Shown: piece by piece, positions 46,865 through 55,060 of the stretch
How positions within the stretch are numbered: position 1 is the first letter of the stretch
Layout of the letters: each line of letters starts with the position of its first letter
Source: Mesonia profundi
Lineage (GTDB): Bacteria; Bacteroidota; Bacteroidia; Flavobacteriales; Flavobacteriaceae
DNA: 64,000 nucleotides
Direction of reading: 5' to 3'
Assembly (NCBI RefSeq): GCF_031085155.1
Contig: NZ_JAVHUL010000003.1
Coordinates: 62,001 to 126,000 of the forward strand
Translations under genes and position numbers: made by a program
The notes under the pieces: model-generated
Database searches by the model: none
The model's input: only the letters and a program-made list of their open reading frames with translations
What the model was told of the DNA's origin: nothing

Positions 46865-46983
46865 GGGGGAGAAGTTAATTTTTTACCTAATAGTTCTCGC
46901 TTCCAACTATTTGAAACTCAAAGTGAAGCATAATTATACGCTAAAGACACATAAGAATTAGATTTTGGGCGTTGCCTGCGGCC

Positions 46984-47033
46984 GGGCCTGCCCGAACTCT
47001 AAGGGCGGGCCTGCCCGAACTCTAAGGGCGGGC
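46984..47033. repeat. Tandem GC-rich repeat, period 23
   Basis: A 23-base unit beginning GGGCCTGCCCGAACTCTAAG is present twice in perfect copies (46984 and 47007), with the first 4 bases of a third. Each unit contains GCCC...GGGC arms. It belongs to the same GC-rich palindrome family as 23238, 57065 and 61585. Confidence 0.7.
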
Positions 47034-47402: not shown

Positions 47403-48101
47403 CTATTTTTTCAAAAAATAAGAAATTATGATTTCGCTTAATTGCTCTTGATCTATTTGTACTATGGGATGTTTAAAGCCTTCTATTTCTAAGAATTTTC
47501 CTTGGTTTAGTTTTGCGACCAATTCTTGGGATTCATTCTTGCTAACCATCTTATCTTTAGAGCCGAGAGCGACCAAAACCTTCGCTTCTACAATTTTAAG
47601 AGACTCCAAAGCAATGGCATTTCCGTTTCCTAAACCGTGCATCATTTGGGCTGTCTTAAGGACCAGAGTTTTCCAATTCTCCGTACCGTGTTCTTTTTTT
47701 AGCATTTCCACAAATTGCGGAATTTTCTCCAACATCTCCTCTGGCCTCAAGAGTTTAACCTCTTTCTCGGCCGTCTCGACATCCCATCGAATTTTTGTTC
47801 CCAAAGTCATCAATTTCTCTACTTTTTCGGGATAATTTATAGCTAATTTTAACGCGACATAACCTCCCATACTATAACCAAAAATGTTAGCTGAGGTCAG
47901 TGAATTCTCTTCCATATAAGACAAGACGTCGTTTTGAAACAATTCCATAGAAAATTCTCGATCTGTAGAAGAATTTCCATGTCCCGAGAAATTGAAGGAA
48001 TGCACTTTAAAATGAGGCTGCAGCAGTTTCTTTAAAATATTGAATTGTTGCTGACTGCCCAAAGCACCATGAAATAATAGGATGTCGGTCTTTTCTTTCA
48101 T
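47403..48101 (-). CDS. Alpha/beta hydrolase
   Basis: The ATG at 48101 (MKEKTDILLFHGALG) is chosen; the longer frame from 48143 adds a Lys-rich stretch not typical of the family. The 232-residue product has an oxyanion-hole HGALGS, nucleophile elbow GYSMGGYVAL, acid region LGSKDKMV and catalytic His in FKHPIVQI. It resembles small BioH/MenH-type esterases. Substrate unknown. Confidence 0.88.
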   Translation of the reverse strand: MKEKTDILLFHGALGSQQQFNILKKLLQPHFKVHSFNFSGHGNSSTDREFSMELFQNDVLSYMEENSLTSANIFGYSMGGYVALKLAINYPEKVEKLMTLGTKIRWDVETAEKEVKLLRPEEMLEKIPQFVEMLKKEHGTENWKTLVLKTAQMMHGLGNGNAIALESLKIVEAKVLVALGSKDKMVSKNESQELVAKLNQGKFLEIEGFKHPIVQIDQEQLSEIIISYFLKK

Positions 48102-48135
48102 AATCTTTTTTTTATTACATCGTTTCTTTCTGTGC

Positions 48136-48288
48136 ATTTTCACATCACTAAATCATCACATTTTCAAATTAACCCATCACCACATTTTCATTATTAAAAT
48201 AGTCAAGAAATCATAGAAGAAGACTCCGGTACAATTTTCTTTAGAAAATCACTCAGCCATCGTCTATGATTTTCACATCACTAAATCA
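48136..48288. repeat. 20-base direct repeat, two copies
   Basis: ATTTTCACATCACTAAATCA occurs at 48136-48155 and again at 48269-48288. Related degenerate pieces with CATTTTCAAAT and ATCATCACAT lie between and after them. The region separates the hydrolase gene from the next gene on the same strand. Confidence 0.7.
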
Positions 48289-48948: not shown

Positions 48949-49091
48949 CTGATTTCTGGTTGTGATTCTAGGCTATACAATAATACGGAATAATGGGCAA
49001 TATCACTTCCGTAAAGAAAGAATAGGATTAAACGGGGATAAAAGACGGAAGTATTAATATTTCTTTAATAAAATTTAGATCTGGTAATTCA

Positions 49092-49099
49092 TAACTTTG
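49092..49099 (+). promoter_or_regulatory. Candidate -7 element for mqo
   Basis: TAACTTTG fits TAnnTTTG and lies 17 bases before the mqo start. No clear -33 box. Confidence 0.45.
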
Positions 49100-49116
49100 G
49101 GAAAAAGCAAGATACA

Positions 49117-50637
49117 ATGGCTCAAGAGAAGAAGTTTGAAAAAGAATACGACCTTATTTGTGTAGGTGGCGGAATCATGAGCGCCACCTTGGCGTTAATG
49201 TTAAAACTAATCGATAAAGACTTAAAAATACTTATTGTAGAGCGATTAGATCAAGTCGCTTTAGAAAGTTCTGCCGCTTGGAACAATGCAGGGACGGGAC
49301 ATTCTGCTTTATGTGAGCTTAATTATACGCCACAACGGGAAGATGATTCTATAGATGTAAGCAAAGCAAAAGAAGTGTTTAAGCAGTTTGAAAATTCAAA
49401 GCAGTTTTGGTCTTATTTGGTGGAACAGGGATTGTTAAAAGATCCAGAGGTATTTATTCATGCGGTGCCGCATCACAGTTGGGTGAAAGGGAAAGAAGAT
49501 GTAGATTTTCTAAAGAAGCGTTTTGAAGAAATGACTCAGCACCCCGAATTTAAAGAAATGCAATTTTCTGAAGATCCTAGCATCCTAAACTCTTGGTTTC
49601 CCTTAATAAAAAATAAGTCTAAGAAAGATCCTGTGGCTGCTACAAGAATGGAGTTGGGAACCGAGGTCAACTTTGGAGAGTTAACACGCTCTTTTTTTAA
49701 AATTCTAGAAGAAAAGTTTGACACGCCCGTTTATACCGAATGCGAAGTAGAAGATGTAGACCCGAGTGAAGATGTAGAATGGCTTACCGAAATTAAAGAC
49801 CTCAAAACACATCAAAAATACTACTGCAATGCAAGTCACGTATTTATTGGTGCTGGCGGCGGCGCATTATCTTTGTTGCAAAAAGTAGAAATAGACGATA
49901 AAGAGGGTTATGGAGGTTTCCCTGTAAGCGGGCAATGGCTTATTTGTAAAAATGAGGAGATGATTAAAAAGCATCACGCCAAAGTATATAGCAAAGCAGG
50001 ACCCGATGCGCCGCCTATGTCAACGCCGCATTTAGATACACGTTACATCGAAGGGAAACAAGAACTTTTATTTGGCCCGTTTGCCGGATTTAGTACCAAG
50101 TTCTTAAAAGAAGGCTCGTACTTAGACTTGTTTAAATCTATAGAGATAAATAATATTCCTTCGCTTTGGGGCGCTTTTTGGCATAACCTGCCGCTCACCA
50201 AATATTTGATTCAGCAAGTAGAAATGAATCACGAAGATCGTATGGAAAAACTGCGAGTGTTTGTTCCGGATGCCAAGAATGAAGACTGGGAACTCAAAAT
50301 TGCAGGACAACGGGTGCAAATCATTAAAAAAGATGAAAAAGAGGGTGGCGTCTTAGAATTTGGAACCGAAGTGGTACATAGTAAAGACGGTTCAATTACC
50401 GCATTATTAGGCGCTTCTCCTGGTGCATCTACGGCCGTACACATTATGACCGAACTTATTACCTATGCTTTTCCAGAGAAAACGGCGACCAAAGCTTGGC
50501 AGGATCAAATGCATGAAATGATTCCTTTTTGGGATAAAAACATTGACGAACATCCGCTTGAATTTAAGAAAATGCAAGAAAAATGCTCAGAAATCCTGAG
50601 AATTGGGGCGTTTTCTTCAGTAAAGTTGCAAAAATAA
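49117..50637 (+). CDS. mqo: Malate:quinone oxidoreductase
   Basis: The 506-residue flavoprotein has the FAD-binding N-terminus LICVGGGIMSATLALML, the SSAAWNNAGTGHSALCELNYTP region in adjoining segments, FIGAGGGALSLLQK and FGPFAGFSTKFLKEGS. It oxidises malate to oxaloacetate and passes electrons to menaquinone at the inner membrane, linking the TCA cycle to respiration. Confidence 0.95.
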   Translation: MAQEKKFEKEYDLICVGGGIMSATLALMLKLIDKDLKILIVERLDQVALESSAAWNNAGTGHSALCELNYTPQREDDSIDVSKAKEVFKQFENSKQFWSYLVEQGLLKDPEVFIHAVPHHSWVKGKEDVDFLKKRFEEMTQHPEFKEMQFSEDPSILNSWFPLIKNKSKKDPVAATRMELGTEVNFGELTRSFFKILEEKFDTPVYTECEVEDVDPSEDVEWLTEIKDLKTHQKYYCNASHVFIGAGGGALSLLQKVEIDDKEGYGGFPVSGQWLICKNEEMIKKHHAKVYSKAGPDAPPMSTPHLDTRYIEGKQELLFGPFAGFSTKFLKEGSYLDLFKSIEINNIPSLWGAFWHNLPLTKYLIQQVEMNHEDRMEKLRVFVPDAKNEDWELKIAGQRVQIIKKDEKEGGVLEFGTEVVHSKDGSITALLGASPGASTAVHIMTELITYAFPEKTATKAWQDQMHEMIPFWDKNIDEHPLEFKKMQEKCSEILRIGAFSSVKLQK

Positions 50638-50755
50638 ATAACTTTTAAGAATTTTTGCTATTTTGCACTACTTTAAAGATATCTTATCGATATTTTATAA
50701 AATGGTATTTTTGAATTGTATATTCGTTTAGTCTCCAGTGTAGTCAAATAATAGT

Positions 50756-50886
50756 TCTGATGTCACGTCGAGCCTTTCGTCTTCCCGCCAGAATGAATTC
50801 TTTCGGGCTGGCGCTCAAGACAGGCTAAAGTCGAGACGCTTTTGTTTAACCTTTCGACTCCGCTCTCCCGAAGCTTCGGGAGTGGC
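50756..50886. repeat. Repeat-rich gap between mqo and the channel gene
   Basis: GTCGAGCCTTTCG is mirrored by GGCTAAAGTCGAGAC around an inner GCC...GGC structure. A perfect 18-base palindrome CTCCCGAAGCTTCGGGAG lies at 50865-50882, where it could act as a terminator. The CCTTTCGACTCCGCTC string is shared in type with the repeat at 57348. No gene is seen here. Confidence 0.55.
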
Positions 50887-50976
50887 AAAAACTACTTATA
50901 GAAATGGAAGCGGATAAATAATTTTTGAATGATTAAATATAACAATACATCACATTTAATACATAATAACAACTTT

Positions 50977-52077
50977 ATGACTTCCAAAAATTTTCTTTGC
51001 GGATTTATTCTTTCCATCTTTTGTTTCAGTTTATCTGGAAATCAAGTACATGCACAAACGGCAACAACCGATTCCCTTCCTAAAGTATTAAAAGTAGGTT
51101 TGGCGGGAAGCGAACCTTTTGTATTTGACAATGCAGACTCTGAAGGAATTGCCGTAGAAATATGGGATGAAGTAGCCGATGAAAAAGGCTGGGAATTCGA
51201 TTATGTATCTTATACTTCTGTGAACAAAGGATTAGAAGCCGTTAAAAAAGGGGAGGTAGATTTAATGGTAGGTCCCATTAGCATCACCTCGCAGCGTGCC
51301 AAGCATTATAGATTTTCACAACCTTATTACCAGTCCAGTTTAGCGATTGCTTCTAGAGTAGAGGATGCCGGATTATGGGGTAGAATTAAACCTTTTTTTA
51401 GCATGCAGTTATTGATTGCGGTAGGAATATTTGTATTTATTTTATCTATTGTAGGAACTCTGTTTTGGTTGGCAGAAAGACACCATTCTCCAGAACAGTT
51501 CCCCGCAGATCCTGCTAAGGGAATAGGAAATGGAATGTGGCTCGCCATAGTTACGATGAGTACCACAGGATATGGTGATATGGCGCCGATAACGCTTCGG
51601 GGTCGAATTATTGCCGGAGTTTGGATGGTGGTTACCATTATTTTTGCGACTTCCATGGTGGCAGGAATCGCGAGTACACTTACGCTTTCTGGTCTAGGTT
51701 CTTCAACCGTAAGTAATATCGAAGAATTATCTGGTAAGAAAACGGCGACCATAACTGGTTCTCCTGCAGTGAGCTTTATTAAAGAACACAAGTCTAAACC
51801 GGTGATGGTTGAGAGTCTTCAAGAAGCCATGAAATTGTTGCATGATAAAAAAGTAGATGCGGTAATCTATGACCGACCTCAATTGCTTTATTTTCAAAAG
51901 AATGGTCCAGAGGATGAGATTTTTATCGCTAAAGCGGAATACTATAAGCAAGGTTACGGCGTGGCGTTTCCTCTAGATAGTGAGATGGTAAACGAAGTAA
52001 ATTTAGGCTTATTAGAACTCGCTGAAAAGCAAAGGGTAATTGAAATTGTAGATAAGTATTTAGGGAAAGACGAGTAG
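50977..52077 (+). CDS. GluR0-type ligand-gated potassium channel, putative
   Basis: The ATG at 50977 gives 366 residues with a signal peptide (cleavage near VHAQ, residue 27). Lobe 1 of a solute-binding domain spans about 35-128 and includes the ligand arginine Arg107 in SITSQRAKHYRFSQPYY. The first helix is at about 141-167, then a pore loop with the selectivity filter TTGYGD (196-201) and the second helix at about 209-236. Lobe 2 follows, starting VSNIEELSGKKTATITG. This S1-TM-P-TM-S2 order is that of cyanobacterial GluR0, the prokaryotic relative of ionotropic glutamate receptors. A ligand-gated potassium channel is inferred, with an amino acid as likely ligand. Confidence 0.88.
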   Translation: MTSKNFLCGFILSIFCFSLSGNQVHAQTATTDSLPKVLKVGLAGSEPFVFDNADSEGIAVEIWDEVADEKGWEFDYVSYTSVNKGLEAVKKGEVDLMVGPISITSQRAKHYRFSQPYYQSSLAIASRVEDAGLWGRIKPFFSMQLLIAVGIFVFILSIVGTLFWLAERHHSPEQFPADPAKGIGNGMWLAIVTMSTTGYGDMAPITLRGRIIAGVWMVVTIIFATSMVAGIASTLTLSGLGSSTVSNIEELSGKKTATITGSPAVSFIKEHKSKPVMVESLQEAMKLLHDKKVDAVIYDRPQLLYFQKNGPEDEIFIAKAEYYKQGYGVAFPLDSEMVNEVNLGLLELAEKQRVIEIVDKYLGKDE

Positions 52078-52112
52078 TTTCTATTCCATATAAGTGCAGA
52101 GATGCGCTCATG

Positions 52113-52142
52113 AAAAAAGCCAGAAGAAATTCTGGCTTTTTT
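52113..52142. terminator. Bidirectional terminator between channel gene and polA
   Basis: AAAAAAGCCAGAA pairs perfectly with TTCTGGCTTTTTT over a GAAA tetraloop. It can end both the plus-strand channel gene and the minus-strand polA. Confidence 0.93.
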
Positions 52143-52172
52143 GTGTTTATGATTTTGATAGAAGGGAAAGTT

Positions 52173-55019
52173 CTAGTGTGCTTCTAGCCAGTTTTCGCCA
52201 GTTCCAATCTCTACATCTAGAGGTACGCTTAACTCAAACGCATGTTCCATTTCTTGTTTTACCATTTTTTGAAGCGCTTCCAATTCTTCTTTGTGTACAT
52301 CAAAAATCAATTCATCATGTACTTGTAGTAACATTTTACTACGATACTTATTCTCTTTTAGCTTTCGCTGAATGTTGATCATCGCCACTTTAATAATATC
52401 GGCGGCACTTCCTTGAATAGGTGCATTTACCGCATTGCGTTCGGCAGCGCTGCGCACGATATTGTTTTTAGCATTGATGTCTTTTAAATACCTTCTTCTT
52501 CCCATTACGGTTTCTACATAGCCGTTTTCTCGAGCAAAATGTACTTGCTCGTCCATATAGTCTCTTAGCTTGGGGTAGGTTTTGTAATAGGTTTCTATGA
52601 GCTCTTTAGATTCACTTCGGCTTAAATCGGTTTGATTGCTTAATCCAAAAGCAGAAACTCCATAGATAATTCCAAAATTAACCGTTTTGGCATTGCTTCG
52701 TTGCTCTCTGGTTACTTCTTCCAGCGGAACATCAAAAACTTTTGCCGCCGTAGAAGCGTGAATGTCTTCCCCATCTTTAAAGGCCTTGATCATGGTTTCT
52801 TCTTCACTTAACGCCGCGATAATTCTAAGTTCTATCTGCGAGTAATCGGCGGCAAGTAAGATGTGATTTTCATCTCTGGGAATAAAGGCTTTTCTTACTT
52901 CTCTGCCTCGTTCTGTTCTTATAGGAATGTTTTGTAGATTAGGATTATTAGAGCTCAATCTTCCCGTAGCCGCTACCGTTTGCATATAATCGGTGTGAAC
53001 GCGACCGGTCTTAGGTTCAATTTGCTCTGGTAAAGCATCTACATAAGTATTCTTTAATTTTACCAATCCGCGCCAAGCGAGCACATCTCTAATAATTTGA
53101 TGCTCGTCTGCTAAATAGGAAAGCACCTCTTCGCCGGTAGAATATTGTCCGGTCTTGGTCTTTTTAGGTTTATCTACCAATTCTAATTTTCCGAAAAGAA
53201 TCTCGCCCAACTGCTTAGGAGAACCAATATTAAATTCTTCTCCAGCTTCTTCATAAATCGTTTTTTCGAGGCTAAGAATGTCTGTTTCTAAAACATCAGA
53301 AAGTGTTTTTAAAAACTCACGGTTCACGTGAATTCCTTCCAACTCCATTTCTGCCAATACTTTTAGCAAGGGTAACTCCATTTCTTCATAGAGTTTCTTG
53401 GTTTGGGTTTCTTCCAGCTCCTTATCAAAAAATTCTTTTAATTGGTAGGTGATATCAGCATCTTCAACAGCATATTCTTTCTGTTCTTCTAAAGCCACGC
53501 TGCGCATGGTTTTTTGGTTCTTTCCCTTTTTTCCGATAAGGTCTGTAATGGGTTTTGGAGAATAGTTGAGGTAAGTTTCTGCCAAAACTTCCATATTATG
53601 ACGCATATCTGGATTGATCACATAATGCGCTAACATCGTATCAAAAAACGGTTCAGAAACCTCTATTTCGTAATGGGCCAAGACTTTAATATCGTACTTC
53701 AGGTTTTGTCCTATTTTCTGAATCTTGGGATTGCTAAAAAACTCTTTTAAAGGCTCCAAAATATTTTTCGCTTCCTCTTGGTCTTCGGGAATAGGAAGGT
53801 AATAGCCTTTTCCTTTCTCCCAGCTAAAAGCAATTCCTACCAATTCGGCTTCAAAAGTATCGAGGGAAGTGGTTTCGGTATCAAAACAAACCGAAGTTTG
53901 TGTATTTAATTTTTTTAAGAAAAGTTGAGTCGCCATTCCGGGTTCTATCAACTGATAAAGATGCGAAGTGTTTTCTAGGTTTTTATACCCTGTAAAATTT
54001 TCTGCGGAAACATCTTCTTTAGAAGTGTCGTTGCCAAATAAAGAAAACTGTCCTGCCCCTGCGGGAGATTTCGCCTCTTTTTTCTTTTCTGAAGTTGCCG
54101 CAGGAGTCGTTAAGCCACCGCCAGATTCACCGCCTTCATTAAACATTTTTATAAACTGATCGGTAAGCCTTCTAAATTCTAATTCTTTAAAAATTTCCAC
54201 AACTCCTTCTACATCGGGTTTGGAAAGTTCGTATTCTTCTTCATTAAATTGCACATCACAATCGGTGAAAATGGTGGCTAACTTTCTCGAAAGTCGGCCT
54301 AATTCTGCATTGGCAATGACTTTTTCTTTCATTTTCCCTTTCAGCTGGTCGGTGTTGGCCAAAAGCCCTTCCATACTGTCAAACTGAGTGATGAATTTTT
54401 TAGCGGTTTTATCTCCAACTCCGGGTAAACCAGGAATATTATCAGAGGCATCTCCCATCATTCCCAAGTAATCAATCACTTGCTCGGGACGTTCTACCCC
54501 AAAACGTTTTTGTATTTCTGGAATTCCCCAAATCTCAATGGCATTTCCCATTCTTGCGGGTCGGTACATAAAAACATTTTCAGAAACCAGCTGTCCAAAA
54601 TCCTTATCGGGCGTTACCATAAAGACTTGGTAATTTTCTTTTTCGGCCTGCTTGGCTAGCGTTCCTATAATGTCATCGGCTTCCAAACCTTCTAGTTCAA
54701 TACAAGGAATGTGCATCGCCGTTAATATACTTTTAATATACGGAATTGCGTCTCTAATCGCCTGTGGCGTTTCGTCGCGATTGGCTTTGTATTCTTCAAA
54801 CATTTCGGTACGAGCCTTGCTTCCTCCTTTGTCAAAACAAACCGCCAAATGATCTGGTTTTTCTCTTCGAATCACATCAAAGAGAGAATTGGTAAAGCCC
54901 ATGATGGCAGAGGTATCTTGTCCCTTAGAATTAATTCTAGGGTTTTTGATAAGCGCGTAATAACCTCGAAAAATTAGAGCGAAAGCGTCGAGTAAAAAAA
55001 GTCTTTTTTGATTGGCCAT
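52173..55019 (-). CDS. polA: DNA polymerase I
   Basis: The ATG at 55019 (MANQKRLFLLDAFALIFRGY) is chosen over a start at 55055. The 948-residue enzyme has a 5' nuclease domain (TPDKDFGQLV, GDASDNIPGLPGVGDKTA) and a 3'-5' proofreading domain with its metal ligands apparently intact (CFDTETTSLD, YAVEDADITYQL). The polymerase domain has motif A DYSQIELRIIA, motif B RSNAKTVNFGIIYG and motif C LLQVHDELIFDV. It fills gaps in repair and matures Okazaki fragments. Confidence 0.97.
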   Translation of the reverse strand: MANQKRLFLLDAFALIFRGYYALIKNPRINSKGQDTSAIMGFTNSLFDVIRREKPDHLAVCFDKGGSKARTEMFEEYKANRDETPQAIRDAIPYIKSILTAMHIPCIELEGLEADDIIGTLAKQAEKENYQVFMVTPDKDFGQLVSENVFMYRPARMGNAIEIWGIPEIQKRFGVERPEQVIDYLGMMGDASDNIPGLPGVGDKTAKKFITQFDSMEGLLANTDQLKGKMKEKVIANAELGRLSRKLATIFTDCDVQFNEEEYELSKPDVEGVVEIFKELEFRRLTDQFIKMFNEGGESGGGLTTPAATSEKKKEAKSPAGAGQFSLFGNDTSKEDVSAENFTGYKNLENTSHLYQLIEPGMATQLFLKKLNTQTSVCFDTETTSLDTFEAELVGIAFSWEKGKGYYLPIPEDQEEAKNILEPLKEFFSNPKIQKIGQNLKYDIKVLAHYEIEVSEPFFDTMLAHYVINPDMRHNMEVLAETYLNYSPKPITDLIGKKGKNQKTMRSVALEEQKEYAVEDADITYQLKEFFDKELEETQTKKLYEEMELPLLKVLAEMELEGIHVNREFLKTLSDVLETDILSLEKTIYEEAGEEFNIGSPKQLGEILFGKLELVDKPKKTKTGQYSTGEEVLSYLADEHQIIRDVLAWRGLVKLKNTYVDALPEQIEPKTGRVHTDYMQTVAATGRLSSNNPNLQNIPIRTERGREVRKAFIPRDENHILLAADYSQIELRIIAALSEEETMIKAFKDGEDIHASTAAKVFDVPLEEVTREQRSNAKTVNFGIIYGVSAFGLSNQTDLSRSESKELIETYYKTYPKLRDYMDEQVHFARENGYVETVMGRRRYLKDINAKNNIVRSAAERNAVNAPIQGSAADIIKVAMINIQRKLKENKYRSKMLLQVHDELIFDVHKEELEALQKMVKQEMEHAFELSVPLDVEIGTGENWLEAH

Positions 55020-55052
55020 GAAACTGATATTGAAAATGGAATGTAAAGGTAT

Positions 55053-55060
55053 CAAATCTA
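55053..55060 (-). promoter_or_regulatory. Candidate -7 element for polA
   Basis: Minus-strand TAGATTTG fits TAnnTTTG, 33 bases before the chosen polA ATG at 55019. It overlaps the longer alternative frame start at 55055, which supports the shorter protein. Confidence 0.45.

Follow-up and report, generated by a model that had tools for sequence, protein, structure and literature searches.

The channel gene and its surroundings

The window, the whole 64,000-nucleotide stretch of Mesonia profundi DNA analysed here, contains on its + strand a gene for a predicted GluR0-like ligand-gated K+ channel of 366 amino acids (50977..52077), recognised by Pfam, a PDB sequence search, an AlphaFold2 model and VIA-align. 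The open reading frame list opens this frame at 50929 (382 aa, through 52077, + strand). A first-pass annotation had instead chosen the second in-frame ATG, at 50977, and homologues indeed begin near there. The gene lies between two neighbours that we take, by eye, to be mqo (49117-50637, + strand) and polA (52173-55055, - strand); rplM and rpsI were named in the same way. Both neighbours agree with the first-pass annotation. The terminator it mentioned corresponds to a terminator-like hairpin with 13 pairs (52113..52142, + strand), which separates the channel gene from the convergent polA; three such sites occur in 50500-52300 versus 1.4 expected from shuffles. The mqo-channel gap is 339 bases long and holds a dispersed intergenic repeat (50740..50900, unstranded) with 55 matches in its own genome, itself included and mostly partial. 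Sigma-70-like promoter sites numbered 4 versus 5.2 expected by chance; Bacteroidota have promoter types other than sigma-70-like ones.

The surroundings of polA differ within the genus. The segment with mqo and the channel gene (48949..52172, unstranded) is absent beside polA in the readable relatives: neither gene was found in the ~ 1.5 kb read at the polA 3' flank in any of 14 readable other genomes of the genus, and the fifteenth (L166) stops at a contig end. orf209 adjoins polA in 12 of the 15 other genomes, 62-296 bases away. The genome nearest by polA (G150, 90%) has neither the channel (limit 1e-15) nor mqo (limit 1e-80), and mqo was found in 7 of the 16 species of the genus. In G150 (L152), a hydrolase-like gene that lies between rplM and orf209 in the window (47403-48143) is also missing there, and orf209 and rplM are ~ 200 bases apart. 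The window gap between rplM and the hydrolase-like gene holds a tandem repeat with a 23-base unit, perfect over its 2.2 copies (46983-47033).

We clustered neighbouring open reading frames for the window and 80 relatives (25 largest clusters) and for 26 loci of the window's own branch, defined below (30 largest clusters). A conserved operon for the window gene was dropped as a candidate, as no neighbour recurs beside the relatives among the largest clusters. Within the branch, the widest cluster besides the channel and antisense frames, presumably an SDR-type reductase, was present at 4/26 loci and in differing places; the others among the 30 largest span 2-3 loci, mostly from one genus or family. 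Neighbours do recur on other branches: around 10 Synechococcus loci and around 8-9 loci of the Aequorivita type, among which are a bin of Zunongwangia (L060) and a single Joostella locus (L083). Since it has no recurrent neighbours among the largest clusters, is absent from the polA flank of the 14 readable genus relatives and is missing, with mqo, from G150 at the limits given, the channel is an accessory gene without a conserved operon. Its composition gives no sign of recent transfer, because its G+C resembles that of polA (G+C 0.40 and GC3 0.33 vs 0.39 and 0.36).

Domain architecture and predicted structure

All parts of the protein are encoded on the + strand. A signal-sequence-like N-terminus (residues 1-27, 50977..51057) coincides with a model helix at 3-20 and a hydropathy peak at 6-24. 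It is followed by S1, the first half of the amino-acid-binding domain (~ residues 37-127, 51085..51357), which aligned to the GluR0 core 1iit over 37-124 and matched Pfam SBP_bac_3. The AlphaFold2 model then places membrane helix M1 at residues 143-167 (51403..51477), in agreement with hydropathy, a pore helix at 179-195 (51511..51561), and M2 with the start of the linker to S2 at 207-241 (51595..51699), in the region matched by Pfam Lig_chan. Between the pore helix and M2 lies the K+ selectivity filter (residues 196-201, 51562..51579), identified by sequence and conservation. S2, the second half of the binding domain (~ residues 242-366, 51700..52074), aligned to GluR0 and to glutamine-binding proteins. 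Conservation in relatives marks two ligand residues, Arg107 (51295..51297) and Asp299 (51871..51873), which in this family bind the alpha-carboxylate and the alpha-amino group, respectively (PMC2950845, in excerpt).

Pfam matched SBP_bac_3 in split form over residues 38-364 (E 1.6e-21), Lig_chan over 153-256 (3.1e-12) and Ion_trans_2 over 165-235 (4.6e-08). The split match around the pore, the model helices and the GluR0 alignment bear out the S1-TM1-P-TM2-S2 order proposed in the first-pass annotation, and the residues it had named, the filter (T196-T-G-Y-G-D201) and Arg107, are exact. The protein lacks an N-terminal domain and M4, and by model and hydropathy has two membrane helices besides the signal-like N-terminus. 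It matched 12 NCBIfam models, in each case under the cut-off. The SBP_bac_3 match rules out a two-helix K+ channel of the KcsA kind, which has no ligand domain, and the pore that separates S1 from S2 rules out an amino-acid-binding protein of an ABC transporter.

Among PDB sequences the protein came closest to the binding core of GluR0 (Slr1257; 1iit/1ii5) at E 3.8e-29, which puts homology to GluR0 far beyond chance; the Nostoc GluR0 core 2pyy matched at 3.7e-28. Arg107 and Asp299 align to their GluR0 counterparts in the PDB sequence alignment, in which S262-P263 falls where GluR0 has T-T. Manual index mapping placed Q115 and N339 at the GluR0 dimer-contact residues Q127 and K354 (PMC13099474, in excerpt).

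The AlphaFold2 monomer (input alignment of 58 sequences) had a mean pLDDT of 89.6 and a pTM of 0.74, with the pore helix and filter sitting between the two membrane helices. A potassium pore is thus part of the predicted structure, as first annotated. The pTM does not fix the placement of the pore relative to the binding domain, and the modelled orientation of the pore against the clamshell is the least certain part of the model. In VIA-align, the comparison with GluR0 that had been proposed earlier gave the Synechocystis core as the best match of the binding domain: 1ii5, GluR0 with glutamate, ranked first (Z 31.3, 1.7 A over 218 residues, 29% identity) and 2pyy third (Z 29.9, 32% identity over 212 residues). 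Ranks 2 and 4-7 were glutamine-binding proteins (50 best of 1000 chains compared), and arginine- and lysine-binding proteins also matched strongly. The best 50 of 1951 Foldseek matches were AMPA-receptor chains over 362-381 alignment columns, covering almost the entire model. The fold therefore supports an amino-acid-binding clamshell with an iGluR-like pore, though it does not settle the ligand. Strong matches to glutamine-, arginine- and lysine-binding proteins speak for a K+ channel of GluR0 architecture with a ligand other than glutamate, but the first and third ranks of the two GluR0 cores among those 50 chains speak against it; we return to this reading with the branch-specific residues.

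Group 1 of the prokaryotic iGluRs was described from 12 proteins in which S1 and S2 enclose a K+ filter and a pair of transmembrane helices (Ger et al, 2010; PMC2950845, in excerpt). Those of its sequence and fold features that allow a clear test (S1/S2 around two helices, the GYG filter, the Arg/Asp pair, the GluR0 fold, and the lack of an N-terminal domain and M4) are all present here, and the window protein belongs to these known GluR0 or "Group 1" prokaryotic glutamate receptors. Like GluR0 (Slr1257) of Synechocystis sp. PCC 6803, it has S1-M1-P-M2-S2, a K+ filter and the ligand Arg/Asp, as well as a likely signal peptide and neither an N-terminal domain nor M4 (PMC13099474, PMC6385376 and PMC2950845, all in excerpt). 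It differs in its binding core (29% identical), in TTGYGD, in S262-P263 for T-T and in its phylum. The Nostoc punctiforme core (2pyy), compared over the binding core, is alike in fold and was solved bound to glutamate. Conduction, ligand and orientation have been measured for GluR0, whereas those of the window protein are predictions from sequence and model.

Conservation and distribution of the family

Whole-genome searches that used the full protein or a profile, but no filter pattern, gave us 57 distinct full-length relatives; the true number is at least 57, as some second copies lie outside the set. Arg107, whose conservation the first-pass annotation had asserted, was kept in 57/57, GYGD in 57/57 and Asp299 in 55/57, so that these relatives retain the pore filter throughout. 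For comparison, Arg and Asp are reported as fully conserved in Group 1 (PMC2950845, in excerpt). Relatives from a contig pattern scan gave 77/77 for Arg107, 76/77 for Asp299 and 77/77 for GYGD, the last count not being independent because GYGD was within one of the two scan patterns.

Among 15 relatives compared by region, the pore was the best conserved of S1, pore and S2 in 14, for example in L004 (pore 0.78, S1 0.53, S2 0.69); the exception was the second channel of the window's genome, L002 (S1 0.41 vs pore 0.40). This bears on the reading that the protein is a binding protein with a degenerate, non-conducting pore, in effect a membrane-anchored receptor. Nothing was found in its favour. 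A pore of that kind would drift, and with GYGD intact in every one of the 57 relatives we regard this reading as very improbable. Ten close pairs of relatives gave dN/dS of 0.05-0.15 in eight cases and 0.26 and 0.35 in two anammox pairs; purifying selection acts in the channel family. Silent sites between the window gene and its relatives are saturated (dS), so these figures cover the relatives only. In two relatives, L055 (Cyclobacterium qasimii) and L071, the reading frame is interrupted, by decay of the gene or by sequencing error.

The same conservation weighs on the reading that the K+ channel leaks constitutively, with a binding domain that serves assembly and no gating by a ligand. In E. 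coli LB2003, Synechocystis GluR0 sustains K+ uptake, for which its binding domains are required (2026; PMC13099474, in excerpt). The excerpted text describes growth of the GluR0-expressing, K+-uptake-deficient strain in 30 mM KCl with no mention of added glutamate, and has the binding domains needed through dimerisation, both of which would suit a leaky channel. Arg107 and Asp299, however, are among the most conserved residues and would be unneeded for assembly alone, and we consider ungated leakage improbable, if less so than a dead pore.

For residue-level comparisons, 150 loci yielded 148 matches, of which 136 were kept, in an alignment of 137 rows. Left out were seven pore-only matches (L025-L030, L032), three short or interrupted ones (L054, L086, L139) and L055, whose match runs across two frames; L009, also outside the alignment, has an intact open reading frame with TVGYGD. 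Among the 137 rows the window appears three times, as WINDOW, L001 and L121, and some proteins appear twice because two collections contributed them.

A full-length relative was present in 22 of 149 genomes of the window's bacterial family (best E <= 1e-37); the best matches in the remaining genomes were 4.9e-11 or weaker, and those listed span barely beyond the pore. Across the phylum Bacteroidota, relatives occurred in 33/392 genomes and 22/179 genera (E <= 1e-25). The contig pattern scan found them in Bacteroidota and in Cyanobacteriota, Pseudomonadota, Planctomycetota, Myxococcota, Ignavibacteriota and Rhodothermota, the presence in these six other phyla resting on the best 80 of at least 541 relatives and on patterns favouring GYGD. 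The first-pass description of such channels as rare in bacteria was therefore too strong; GluR0-type channels are patchy rather than rare.

Within the genus, 4 of 16 genomes have an orthologue (E <= 1e-15), the window included and the other three 63-64% identical, and 7 of 16 have a second channel type that is 31-33% identical to the window protein. Both types occur together in the window's genome only. Judging by proteins identical to those of named records in the tree, the genus takes in Mesonia sp. HuA40. Its second channel (G000:C36:371-1372, L002) has 357 aa, is 33% identical and shares the architecture and ligand residues, but its filter is TVGYGD where the window has TTGYGD. In a larger tree built by a quick method L002 sits in the other half, so the genome holds two distant types. 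A relative from Crocosphaera watsonii WH 8501 (L075) is likewise a full-length match of like architecture (34% identity over 331 columns), but it has TVGYGD and belongs to the cyanobacterial branch.

The window's branch, its possible ligand and the predicted mechanism

A careful tree of 38 rows grouped the window with Mesonia proteins (92/77, not starred) and joined this group to Colwellia ponticola, a gammaproteobacterium (100/98). Three proteins of anammox Planctomycetota lay inside a group of Flavobacteriaceae (100/99 and 99/94). In their best segments, the Colwellia protein (L037) and the Planctomycetota proteins (L045, L047, L050) are 57-58% identical to the window channel. That they nest among Bacteroidota proteins suggests transfer of the channel gene between phyla. 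Mis-binning is possible for the anammox proteins, because two of the three Planctomycetota records are MAGs; the Colwellia ponticola channel is on a 413 kb contig of a named strain. The position of the root is unsure owing to long branches at the cyanobacterial outgroup.

Residue 197 of the filter is Thr in 28/137 rows, a figure that includes the window three times, and Val in all others. The Thr rows lie in the window's branch, where they make up 26 of 30, the others being three Brumimicrobium and one Algoriphagus with Val; two changes are needed on the 38-row tree. TTGYGD is also the filter of KAT1-type plant channels, which select for K+, so V to T at this position need not cost selectivity. 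Because T197 and four named loci served to define the branch, the following list of residues is descriptive. W72, S121, R300, Q302, A320, Y322 and G326 were each present in 30/30 branch rows and mostly absent from the 105 other rows, and E321 and K324 were present in 29/30, with mixed residues in the 105 others.

These residues, which lie in both S1 and S2, could mark a ligand of another kind or simply shared descent. If the former, Arg107 and Asp299 would hold the amino-acid backbone and the side-chain pocket of the branch would recognise another amino acid or a related molecule. P263, found in 28/137 rows of which 24 also have T197, points the same way, but descent alone can explain the branch residues. 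Together with the fold matches described above, this makes a ligand other than glutamate, a sub-case of the main reading rather than a full rival to it, nearly an even possibility, falling a little short of it.

Whatever its ligand, the gene product is very probably a GluR0-type amino-acid-gated, K+-selective channel with a predicted working mechanism. The reading is based on domain order, the filter, the ligand residues, the monomer fold and purifying selection among relatives; from these we infer the membrane orientation, tetramer, gating, ligand identity and physiological use. Points that weigh against it are Thr at residue 197, the S262-P263 difference from GluR0 in the side-chain pocket, N339 at the dimer contact K354 and the loose placement of the pore in the model. 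Most likely the protein sits in the inner membrane as an inverted tetramer, a K+ channel gated by amino acids. Once exported, S1 and S2 would form a clamshell of two lobes in the periplasm, and M1, the pore loop and M2 would lie in the inner membrane upside down relative to KcsA, so that the filter enters from the cytoplasm and four subunits make up the pore. In 137/137 rows (duplicates included), the loops predicted to face inward carry more K and R than those outside, counted over unequal stretches of 28 vs 20 positions. Arg107 and Asp299 would hold an alpha-amino acid, whose binding would close the clamshell and pull on M2, opening the pore, and by analogy with GluR0 K+ would then run down its gradient when free extracellular amino acids are present. 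The cell might use this to adjust its K+ and volume, or its membrane potential, quickly in response to changes in amino acids or osmolytes.

The type protein offers a precedent for such a role. Synechocystis GluR0 is in the plasma membrane with both termini outside the cell; its mutant shrinks faster in one phase after a KCl upshock, glutamate changed the wild-type course after the upshock, and on high-KCl agar growth of the mutant was better, with no difference in liquid (PMC13099474, in excerpt). The first-pass statement that no role had been described for such a channel in Bacteroidota holds in that we found no paper on one, but a role of the type protein in cell volume after KCl shock was published in 2026 (PMC13099474, in excerpt). 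Our literature search, which most subscription journals lay outside, gave no study of a GluR0-type channel in Bacteroidota or of the window's branch, and the words Bacteroid-, Flavobact- and Cytophaga- are absent from the main text of the Group 1 survey (PMC2950845). The channel type is already known; its branch is without a study in the literature searched.

GluR0 serves as the standard link that connects K+ channels with bacterial binding proteins and with the glutamate receptors of animals, and iGluRs have been proposed to originate from an inverted K+ pore inserted into a binding protein (PMC6385376, in excerpt). The experiments on a native bacterial channel found in the literature concern a cyanobacterium (PMC13099474, in excerpt). 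We put forward, as a tentative and rather unlikely extension, that the window's channel represents a distinct sub-branch crossing phyla (Bacteroidota, Colwellia and anammox Planctomycetota), mostly with TTGYGD, with conserved binding-domain residues that differ from those of GluR0 and with a ligand of its own, in which an amino-acid-gated K+ channel might serve rapid chemical-to-electrical signalling in heterotrophs. The Bacteroidota set, conserved and patchy and with two distant types in one genome, provides new proteins on which to test ligand choice and gating, and offers a way to ask what use a heterotrophic bacterium makes of a ligand-gated K+ channel.
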